Part shown: one piece after another, positions 39,334 through 42,350 of the stretch | Position numbering within the stretch: the first letter of the stretch is position 1 | Layout: the number at the start of each line of letters is the position of its first letter | Assembly: GCF_019880225.1 (NCBI RefSeq) | Contig: NZ_CP082284.1 | Span: 1,116,001-1,180,000, forward strand | DNA length: 64,000 bases | Reading direction: 5' to 3' | Source: Halobaculum rubrum | GTDB lineage: Archaea; Halobacteriota; Halobacteria; Halobacteriales; Haloferacaceae | Notes under the pieces: model-generated | Database searches by the model: none | Told to the model about the DNA's origin: nothing | Seen by the model: only the letters and a program-made list of their open reading frames with translations | Program-made: the position numbers and the translations under genes

Positions 39334-40719
39334 TCAGTTCTCGATCTCGGGCTCGTCGCTCTCCTCGTCGTCCGTCGCGAAGTACTCCTCGGTGACGGTG
39401 ACGCGGGCCCGCATGATCCGGGTGTTGTCGACCTCCTCGATGCGGATCTTCACGCCCTCGTAGTCGATCTCCTCACCCTCCTCGACGAGCCGACCGGCGC
39501 GGTTGAACACGAAGCCCGCGAGCGTCTCGAACTCCTGTCCCTCCGGCAGGTCGATCTCGAGCACCTCGTTCACCTCGTCGATGTTCACCTCGCCGCGCAC
39601 GAGGACGGTGTCGTCGTCGACGAACTCGAACGGCTCCTCCTCGTCGCCCTCGAGGATCTCGCCGACGATCTCCTCGACCATGTCCTCCAGGGTGAGGATG
39701 CCCTCGGTGGTACCGAACTCGTCGATGACGACGACCATCTGCATCCGGGAGTCCTGCATCTCCTCGAGCAGCTCGTCGGCGTTCTTCGACTCGGGGACGT
39801 GCAGCGTCGGCTGCACGACGCTCGCGAGGTCGTTCTCCCCCTCGCCGTAGTAGCGCGCGCGGACCAAGTCGCGAATGTTCACGACGCCGATGATGTTGTC
39901 GAGGTTACCCTCGTACACCGGGACGCGTTCGTGGTCTGCCTGCACGCACGTCTCGATCGCCTCGTCGATTGAGGCGTCCTTCGGCACCGCGTTCACGTCG
40001 AGCCGGGGCGTCATCACTTCCTTCGCGATCGTCTGGTTGAACCGGAAGATGCGGTCGAGCATCTCCCGCTCCTCCTCCTCGATGACGCCCTCGCGCTCCC
40101 CGGTCTGGATCATGTTCTGGATCTCGTCGCGGGTGACGTACGACGTCTCGATGGCCGACCGGCCGCCGGTGACCTTGTTGACGAGCCGGGTGAGGTAATC
40201 GAACGTGACGACGAGCGGGAGGAGGAGGTACTCCGAGAGCTGGAGCGGCCGAGCGATCCGGAGCGCCCACGACTCGGTGTTCTCGACGGCGTAGCTCTTC
40301 GGGGCGGATTCACCGAACAGCAGCACCAGCGTGGTGATCCCGAAGGTGGAGATGAGGACGGCCGCGCCGGCGCTCTCGACGTAGATCCCGACGAGCGCCG
40401 TCGCCAGCGACGACATCGCGATGTTGACGAGGTTGTTCCCGACGAGGATCGTCACCAGCAACCGGTGCGGATCGGACTTCAGCTCCGCGACGGCGTCGGC
40501 ACCGCGGCGACCCTCCTCGACGAGCAGGTCGATCCGGTGGGCCGCCAGCGAGAACATCGCGATCTCCGAGGAGGAGAAGAACGCCGAGAGCGCGATGAGA
40601 GCGGCGATGGCGACGACGCCACCGATCGAAACGGTCGCGTCGTTGATCGGCACCACGTTCGTGAGCCCGGCGAACTGCGCGGGCGCGACTACTGGAGCGT
40701 GTACCGGCGACAAACCCAT
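39334..40719 (-). CDS. CNNM/CorC (hemolysin C-like) membrane protein with CBS domains
   Basis: This 461-residue protein has a DUF21/CNNM membrane domain of about four helices (25-200: FFSSSEIAMFSLAAHRIDLL, VGNNLVNIAMSS, LLFGESAPKSYA). A CBS pair follows (215-345: VMTPRLDVNAVPKD, RVPVYEGNLDNIIGVVNIRD, VVVIDEFGTTEGILTLEDMV) and then a CorC/HlyC C-terminal domain (365-445). Members are linked to magnesium or cobalt efflux and ion homeostasis; the name hemolysin is historical. The ATG at 40719 lies 27 bases from a CTTAATT element (minus strand), so it is likely leaderless. The small membrane gene downstream is probably in the same operon. Confidence 0.93.
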   Translation of the reverse strand: MGLSPVHAPVVAPAQFAGLTNVVPINDATVSIGGVVAIAALIALSAFFSSSEIAMFSLAAHRIDLLVEEGRRGADAVAELKSDPHRLLVTILVGNNLVNIAMSSLATALVGIYVESAGAAVLISTFGITTLVLLFGESAPKSYAVENTESWALRIARPLQLSEYLLLPLVVTFDYLTRLVNKVTGGRSAIETSYVTRDEIQNMIQTGEREGVIEEEEREMLDRIFRFNQTIAKEVMTPRLDVNAVPKDASIDEAIETCVQADHERVPVYEGNLDNIIGVVNIRDLVRARYYGEGENDLASVVQPTLHVPESKNADELLEEMQDSRMQMVVVIDEFGTTEGILTLEDMVEEIVGEILEGDEEEPFEFVDDDTVLVRGEVNIDEVNEVLEIDLPEGQEFETLAGFVFNRAGRLVEEGEEIDYEGVKIRIEEVDNTRIMRARVTVTEEYFATDDEESDEPEIEN

Positions 40720-40745
40720 GCGATACGATGGCTTGACGGTCCCCC

Positions 40746-40753
40746 GAATTAAG
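40746..40753 (-). promoter_or_regulatory. TATA box of the CNNM/CorC gene
   Basis: CTTAATTC on the minus strand lies 27 bases before the ATG at 40719. It rules out the 43-codon upstream extension of the frame, which would start upstream of the promoter. Confidence 0.6.
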
Positions 40754-40905
40754 CGTTGTCCTCGGGTGGCGCGGCGCCGTCGTCCGCTCTCGGGGAGCCC
40801 GTCCGCGCGACGAGCGTGACGACGCACCGCGAGACCTCGCGGCGGCACGACGCGGCGAGTGCCGCGGGCGAAGACGTTACCAGACTCGCCGTCGTAGCCG
40901 TGGTC

Positions 40906-41175
40906 ATGACAACGTCCGACATTACGCTGTACCGGCTCCAGGCGTGTCCGTACTGCGAGCGCGTCGTTCGAACGCTCGATCGCTACGGGCTGGAGTACGA
41001 GTCACGGTTCGTCGAGCCGATGCACTCGGACCGAAACGCGGTCGCGCGACTCACCGGCAAGCGGTCGGTGCCGGCGATCCGCGACGAGAACACCGGCGTG
41101 ACGATGTCCGAGTCCGGCAACATCGTCGAGTACCTCGACAACACCTACGGCGACGGCGCGGCGGGGGGTTCCTGA
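40906..41175 (+). CDS. Glutaredoxin/GST-N-like thioredoxin-fold protein
   Basis: This 89-residue protein is a single thioredoxin fold with active site ACPYCERVV at residues 12-20, followed by TGKRSVPAIRDENTG (cis-proline) and MSESGNIVEYLDNTYG, typical of glutaredoxins and GST N-terminal domains. Haloarchaea use gamma-glutamylcysteine instead of glutathione, so it may reduce disulfides of that thiol. The stop codon is followed immediately by the ATG of the redoxin gene at 41176, with no gap, so the two are expressed together. Confidence 0.9.
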   Translation: MTTSDITLYRLQACPYCERVVRTLDRYGLEYESRFVEPMHSDRNAVARLTGKRSVPAIRDENTGVTMSESGNIVEYLDNTYGDGAAGGS

Positions 41176-41688
41176 ATGGTCGACTTCGACGTCGTCGAAC
41201 TCCCGGAGGCCGACCACGTCGCCGTCGGCGAGGAGGCGCCCGACTTCACCCGGCCGCTCGTCGGCGACGAGTACTGGAGCGACACCGCGCTGTCGGCCCT
41301 CGACGGCCCGGTGGCGCTCGTGTTCTTCCCGATGGACGGCGCGTTCCCCGCGACGTACGTCTGGAACGAGATCCGGGACCGCGAGTGGGGCCACGGCGAC
41401 ACCGACGACGTGACCGTGGTCGGCGTCTCCATCTCGACCCCGTACGAGCACAAGACGTTCATCGAGGAACGCGGGATGGACTACGAGTTGTTCTCCGACC
41501 CCTCGGCGGAGGTCGGCGAGCAGTATGGTGTCGTCCACGACCTCGACGGGATGACGGGGATCCGCGAGCACCGTCCCGCGGTGTTCCTCCTCGACGAGGA
41601 CCACACGGTCGAGTACGCGTGGGTCGCCGCCGAATGGCCGGAGTTCCCGGACTACGACGAGATCGAATCGCACGTCGAACGCCTGTAA
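41176..41688 (+). CDS. Cysteine-free peroxiredoxin-like protein
   Basis: This 170-residue thioredoxin-fold protein of the AhpC/TSA-redoxin type shows GEEAPDFTRPLVGDEYW at the start, VALVFFPMDGAFPATYVWNE where the peroxidatic region should be, VVGVSISTPYEHKTFIEE, and a terminal RPAVFLLDEDHTVEYAW strand. No cysteine occurs anywhere in the protein; the peroxidatic cysteine after PxxxT is absent. It therefore cannot act as a thiol peroxidase. It is encoded directly after the glutaredoxin-like gene, which suggests a partner or regulatory role. Most conserved structural residues remain, so it does not look like a decayed gene. Confidence 0.9.
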   Translation: MVDFDVVELPEADHVAVGEEAPDFTRPLVGDEYWSDTALSALDGPVALVFFPMDGAFPATYVWNEIRDREWGHGDTDDVTVVGVSISTPYEHKTFIEERGMDYELFSDPSAEVGEQYGVVHDLDGMTGIREHRPAVFLLDEDHTVEYAWVAAEWPEFPDYDEIESHVERL

Positions 41689-41696
41689 GCCGCCCC

Positions 41697-42350
41697 ATGA
41701 ACGCCGACGGATCGAATCATGGACCGGATCACGGGGCGGACCACGAGCCGAATCCCGGGGTGACGGACGCCGACATCGAGGACGCCGCCGAGGCGCTCCG
41801 TGGGGGCGGGGCCGTCGTCTACCCGACGGAGACCGTGTACGGGCTCGGCGCCGACGCGACTGATCCGGCCGCCGTCGAGCGCGTGTTCGCGCTGAAGGAC
41901 CGCCCGCGGGACAAGCCGCTGTCGGTCGCGTTCGGGAGCGTCGAGGCGGCGCTGTCGCTGGCGCCCGCGAGCGACCGGGCCGCCCGCTTCGCGCGGGCGT
42001 TCCTTCCCGGCCCCGTGACCGTCGTCGTCGACCGCGGCGACGTCCTGGCCGCCGAGCTCACCGACGGCGGGCCGCGCGTCGGGATCCGCGTGCCGGATCA
42101 CGAGGTCGCACGAGCGCTCGCGGACGCCGCCGGCCCGATCACCGCGACGAGCGCGAACCGCTCGGGCGCCGGGAGCGTCCGCCGGGTCGCCGATCTCGAC
42201 CCCCGAATCCGCGACGGCTGCGCGGCCGTGCTCGACGGCGGCGAGACGCTCGGCGGCGAGAGCACCGTCGTCGACCCCGATCGCGGCGTCATCCACCGCG
42301 CGGGACCGCTGGCCGACGAGATCCGCGAGTGGCTGGCGAGCCAGCCCTGA
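41697..42350 (+). CDS. Sua5/YciO/YrdC family: threonylcarbamoyl-AMP synthase
   Basis: This 217-residue protein forms threonylcarbamoyl-AMP from threonine, bicarbonate and ATP, the first step of the t6A37 modification of tRNAs reading ANN codons. A histidine-rich disordered N-terminus (1-22) precedes the YrdC fold: VYPTETVYGLGADATD, FALKDRPRDKPLSV, GPVTVVVDRGD, and the ligand-binding TATSANRSG. The C-terminal Sua5 extension is absent, so it is the short form. It begins eight bases after the redoxin gene and may share its transcript. Confidence 0.92.
   Translation: MNADGSNHGPDHGADHEPNPGVTDADIEDAAEALRGGGAVVYPTETVYGLGADATDPAAVERVFALKDRPRDKPLSVAFGSVEAALSLAPASDRAARFARAFLPGPVTVVVDRGDVLAAELTDGGPRVGIRVPDHEVARALADAAGPITATSANRSGAGSVRRVADLDPRIRDGCAAVLDGGETLGGESTVVDPDRGVIHRAGPLADEIREWLASQP

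Follow-up and report, generated by a model that had tools for sequence, protein, structure and literature searches.

The window analysed here is a 64,000-nucleotide stretch of the 3.06 Mb genome of Halobaculum rubrum. It carries, end to end on the forward strand, a glutaredoxin-like gene (Grx-A) and a gene for a cysteine-free protein of the AhpC/TSA fold (the family A redoxin), in the following arrangement:

39334-40848, minus strand: CNNM/CorC-family transporter gene
40906-41175, plus strand: Grx-A, glutaredoxin / GST-N-like gene, 89 aa, ATG at 40906 to TGA at 41173-41175
40945-40956, plus strand: codons for the CPYC active site (Grx-A residues 14-17), read from the sequence
41173-41178, plus strand: TGA|ATG junction with a zero-base gap, read from the sequence
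41176-41688, plus strand: AhpC/TSA-fold gene, putative pseudo-peroxiredoxin (family A), 170 aa, ATG at 41176 to TAA at 41686-41688
41329-41358, plus strand: codons for P52-Y61 (PMDGAFPATY), in the place of PxxxTxxC, with the Ala59 codon at 41350-41352
41697-42350, plus strand: Sua5/YciO/YrdC gene

Grx-A matches the Pfam families GST_N_3 (E 3.8e-14) and Glutaredoxin (E 1.8e-12), and the redoxin matches AhpC-TSA (E 1.2e-21; 77.3 bits against a cut-off of 26). An earlier note on this DNA had described the two genes as fused end to end. They do abut, the ATG following the TGA directly, but they are two separate reading frames, and no natural fusion occurs among 93 orthologous loci (55 from one scan of a genome collection, the remainder from a class-wide search). 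The same note had reported a redoxin that keeps its fold motifs and has no cysteine at all, and this reading was correct, as the 170-residue protein contains none and retains the AhpC-TSA match. Its closest relative found is that of Halobaculum saliterrae (L007; 92% identity). In 82/93 loci the CNNM/CorC gene is upstream of the pair and divergent from it, and may have a regulatory region in common with it. The Sua5/YciO/YrdC gene begins 8 nt past the redoxin and is close behind the pair in some relatives only (e.g. L007, L008). A scan of the locus for bacterial promoters and terminators gave no matches; it used bacterial models on an archaeal host and is hence uninformative.

Peroxiredoxins are textbook cysteine enzymes. 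Because haloarchaeal proteins are cysteine-poor, the zero count in the redoxin is less telling: within the window, a 401-aa phosphate permease also has no cysteine and the 504-aa CNNM protein has one. The total absence is weak evidence, and the loss at the peroxidatic column is what counts. Columns were assigned by gap-free alignment between the anchors LVF[F/Y]P and RDxEW with a cysteine-bearing paralogue from the same genome (L142; LVFYPFDFSPVCTAEICGFRDAEW), and the P52-Y61 segment also aligned gap-free to PrxQ. Where peroxiredoxins have PxxxT(S)xxC, the redoxin of the window has Ala56 at the Thr position and Ala59 at the peroxidatic cysteine. Among the 93 orthologues, column 59 holds Ala (74), Ser (7), Gly (6) or Thr (6) and never Cys, and the Thr/Ser column holds Ala (64), Ser (21), Asp (6) or Gly (2). 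A register shift placing the invariant Tyr61 at the cysteine column was rejected, given that the alignment is gap-free between the flanking anchors against both L142 and a second redoxin family, described below. No cysteine at all was present in the aligned part of 71/93 orthologues, and the stray cysteines of the other 22 share no common column. At the column of the active-site Arg (KRAVF) most family A orthologues have Pro134, and an invariant Arg133, one residue before, might substitute for it spatially. Loss of the peroxidatic cysteine beside the glutaredoxin-like gene is conserved at every one of the 93 loci; the same gene pair with a normal peroxidatic cysteine was sought in all of them and not found. 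Judged by its sequence, the family A redoxin fits best among pseudo-enzymes with a peroxiredoxin fold, outside the thiol peroxidases.

The class-wide search returned a strong redoxin match in 189/194 haloarchaeal genomes, one of these being split in two by an insertion. In a search of 295 genomes from the phylum, only Halobacteria gave matches at E < 1e-20, and the 242 non-halobacterial genomes gave none. In the five genomes that lack the redoxin, glutaredoxin matches were at the level of paralogues or absent; redoxin and cognate glutaredoxin are therefore jointly absent, from a small number of genomes. Some copies are irregular. At L042 (5001-5618), L132 (1510-2112) and L133/L139, the redoxin of Halovivax asiaticus and of two relatives of it (G071, G101) is interrupted mid-chain, after about residue 70, by a long insertion. 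In the Haladaptatus halobius redoxin (L022, 4995-5510) an in-frame TGA stands in place of Trp149, which is invariant elsewhere; this would reflect either a damaged gene or an error in the sequencing. In-frame stops in some genomes of genus g25 were considered and rejected; in the three read, any stop within the match was the terminal stop. The genome of the window itself also has an incomplete AhpC/TSA match, interrupted by a TAA (L068, G000:C1:2630874-2631050), which is probably the remnant of a cysteine-bearing redoxin like L064.

Grx-A lies directly upstream of the redoxin, on the same strand, in 93/93 orthologous loci. The tight spacing seen in the window extends to this whole set: the gap is -1 (a one-base overlap of stop and start) in 69 loci, 0 in 10 and at most 5 nt in 92. 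The Grx-A motif is CPYC in 48/93 and CPFC in 45/93 loci. Across 20 aligned proteins C14, P15, C17, V55 and P56 are invariant, so that Grx-A has both the CPYC/CPFC motif and the cis-Pro (VP) of a glutaredoxin. The same 20 proteins have an invariant GST-like Glu-Ser pair (E69, S70), which in GSTs holds the gamma-Glu group. At 89 aa, Grx-A consists of the N-terminal domain only, and has no C-terminal helical GST domain. A gamma-glutamylcysteine ligase of the GCS2 family is present in the genome, as would be anticipated in haloarchaea, which use gamma-glutamylcysteine (review PMC7278568).

A second family (family B, loci L165-L194) repeats this association in another arrangement. These AhpC/TSA-fold proteins of about 158 aa, marked by GFxFSAIAxxWWxRY, occur in about 36/194 haloarchaeal genomes, and the window's own genome gave no match at E 1e-30. 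Their peroxidatic column is not Cys in 30/30 loci read, usually being Ala, and in 26/30 a CP[Y/W/H]C glutaredoxin is divergently adjacent, head-to-head (for example L167, redoxin at 1501-1974 on the plus strand and glutaredoxin at 1115-1357 on the minus strand). Profiles of the two families align over their whole length. In a tree computed with the active-site columns left out, families A and B together fall on one side of a branch, opposite 26 cysteine-bearing proteins, with support of 97/91. In the glutaredoxin tree, Grx-A and Grx-B group together with modest support (80/77). The simplest reading, which both trees fit, would be a single cysteine loss in one ancestral pair that later duplicated, although the branches are long.

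The redoxin is retained under purifying selection, with a dN/dS of 0.14-0.35 against four relatives by the simple Nei-Gojobori method. Over the 93 orthologues, the segment 50-69, which contains the former active site, is more conserved than the remainder (mean entropy 0.80 vs 1.11 bits). M53, G55, F57, Y61 and R69 are invariant within it, as are R133, W149, P155, P158 and Y160 outside it, and the invariant residues of family A exceed those common to ordinary PrxQ proteins. A dead enzyme that had taken on no new role ought to have relaxed constraint at this site; newly fixed residues there point to a new use. Together, purifying selection and the new invariant residues argue for a functional redoxin. 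Its presence behind the glutaredoxin in nearly all haloarchaea, despite the lost cysteine, suggests a look-alike kept for a new job linked to that partner. A predicted model of the redoxin (pLDDT 91, pTM 0.88) has a PrxQ-like peroxiredoxin fold; its best fold matches are Sulfolobus Bcp4 / PrxQ, with a TM-score of 0.81 to 3hjp. We also modelled Grx-A and redoxin as one chain, reading through the TGA purely as a modelling device; this prediction, from 11 sequences, gave pLDDT 68 and pTM 0.56, values too low to define how the two would dock.

Comparison with archaeal PrxQ/Bcp proteins (S. solfataricus Bcp4, 3hjp; S. tokodaii PrxQ, 2ywn/4g2e; Aeropyrum pernix PrxQ, 2cx3/4gqf) showed a shared fold, about 28-30% identity along almost the full length and a retained C-terminal W-V ... 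P-x-Y-D segment. Unlike these proteins, the redoxin has both the peroxidatic Cys and the active-site Thr replaced, mostly Pro at the usual Arg position, and new invariant residues. ERp29-type proteins likewise retain a thioredoxin-superfamily fold after loss of the reactive cysteines, there for binding, although they are proteins of the eukaryotic ER, from another subfamily and with no glutaredoxin operon. The peroxiredoxin of the PGdx-type Prx-Grx hybrids is of the Prx5 type. Like these hybrids, found for example in Haemophilus influenzae (PMC1361801), the haloarchaeal locus supplies a peroxiredoxin fold and a glutaredoxin jointly, but as two polypeptides, glutaredoxin first, with a PrxQ-type partner that has no catalytic cysteine, whereas PGdx is a single chain with an active one. 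The Bcp/PDO relay of S. solfataricus (PMC7278568) also sets an archaeal peroxiredoxin beside a glutaredoxin-like protein, although the peroxiredoxin there is an active thiol enzyme. A literature search, with subscription journals mostly outside it, found no paper on this redoxin family or on the pair.

These data allow us to propose, with about even confidence, that the redoxin is an ancient, conserved pseudo-peroxiredoxin kept as a non-catalytic partner, adaptor or regulator of the glutaredoxin, the ancestral peroxiredoxin having been a client of that glutaredoxin. Of the ideas in the earlier note, that of a pseudo-enzyme gains support from the conserved cysteine loss in 93 loci, the co-conservation of the two genes, their joint absence and the existence of a second such pair; a regulatory role, a new chemistry and a use of gamma-glutamylcysteine by the pair are more hypothetical. 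The ancestor would have been a peroxiredoxin reduced by this glutaredoxin; reduction of an archaeal peroxiredoxin by the glutaredoxin-like S. solfataricus PDO is a precedent (review PMC7278568). Catalysis would then have been lost and docking to the glutaredoxin retained. The present redoxin would bind Grx-A, and either regulate it or offer it substrates or an oxidised ligand, with the thiol chemistry performed by the CPYC protein and the small thiol probably being gamma-glutamylcysteine. The lack of any fusion among the 93 loci counts against such a partner model, as does the fact that conserved operons can join proteins that are never in contact.

There are rival explanations. The redoxin could be a chaperone-like or structural protein with a role of its own, paired with Grx-A only for shared regulation, for example under oxidative stress. 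Cysteine-free thioredoxin-fold proteins do serve as binding proteins elsewhere, as in the ERp29 type, and the H. volcanii glutaredoxin HVO_0337, which is not necessarily Grx-A, rises 12-fold under hypochlorite via OxsR (PMC9426492). Either HVO_0337 or HVO_0251 may be the Grx-A of that species. We regard separate roles as somewhat unlikely, given that adjacency in 93/93 loci is far stricter than in ordinary archaeal operons and that the pairing recurs in family B, divergent there instead of same-strand. It is unlikely, too, that the former active-site pocket has been rebuilt for cysteine-independent chemistry or ligand binding, with the glutaredoxin supplying, removing or repairing a substrate. 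The five invariant residues clustered at the former site, and the five outside it, would suit such a pocket, but the set is mostly aromatic, Pro and Gly, and so interface-like, and no metal- or cofactor-binding motif was recognised in the redoxin.

A remaining peroxidase or redox activity, through another residue or a cysteine elsewhere in the chain, is compatible with the predicted intact fold, but we consider it very improbable, since no cysteine column is conserved, most orthologues are cysteine-free in the aligned part and both the Thr and the Cys of PxxxTxxC are replaced. Recent local loss or gene decay, to which only the in-frame TGA in Haladaptatus halobius would point, was rejected as next to impossible: the reading frame is open in the other orthologues read, all orthologues lack the peroxidatic cysteine, the gene is widespread and its dN/dS is low. 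The preferred model of a non-catalytic glutaredoxin partner can also be carried further, to a class of obligate glutaredoxin/pseudo-peroxiredoxin complexes that would already have existed in the ancestor of the Halobacteria and undergone at least one duplication, with the dead peroxiredoxin directing or gating disulfide chemistry that depends on gamma-glutamylcysteine. This extension is tentative, and we think it rather doubtful.

For annotation, the name AhpC/TSA or redoxin fold would mislead, and would distort counts of peroxide-defence genes. Species of Haloferax (L030, L032) have the pair, and laboratory genetics exists for this genus, which opens the idea to direct tests. Having dropped its cysteine while keeping its glutaredoxin partner, this near-universal family of haloarchaea offers a clean natural pseudo-enzyme for dissection.
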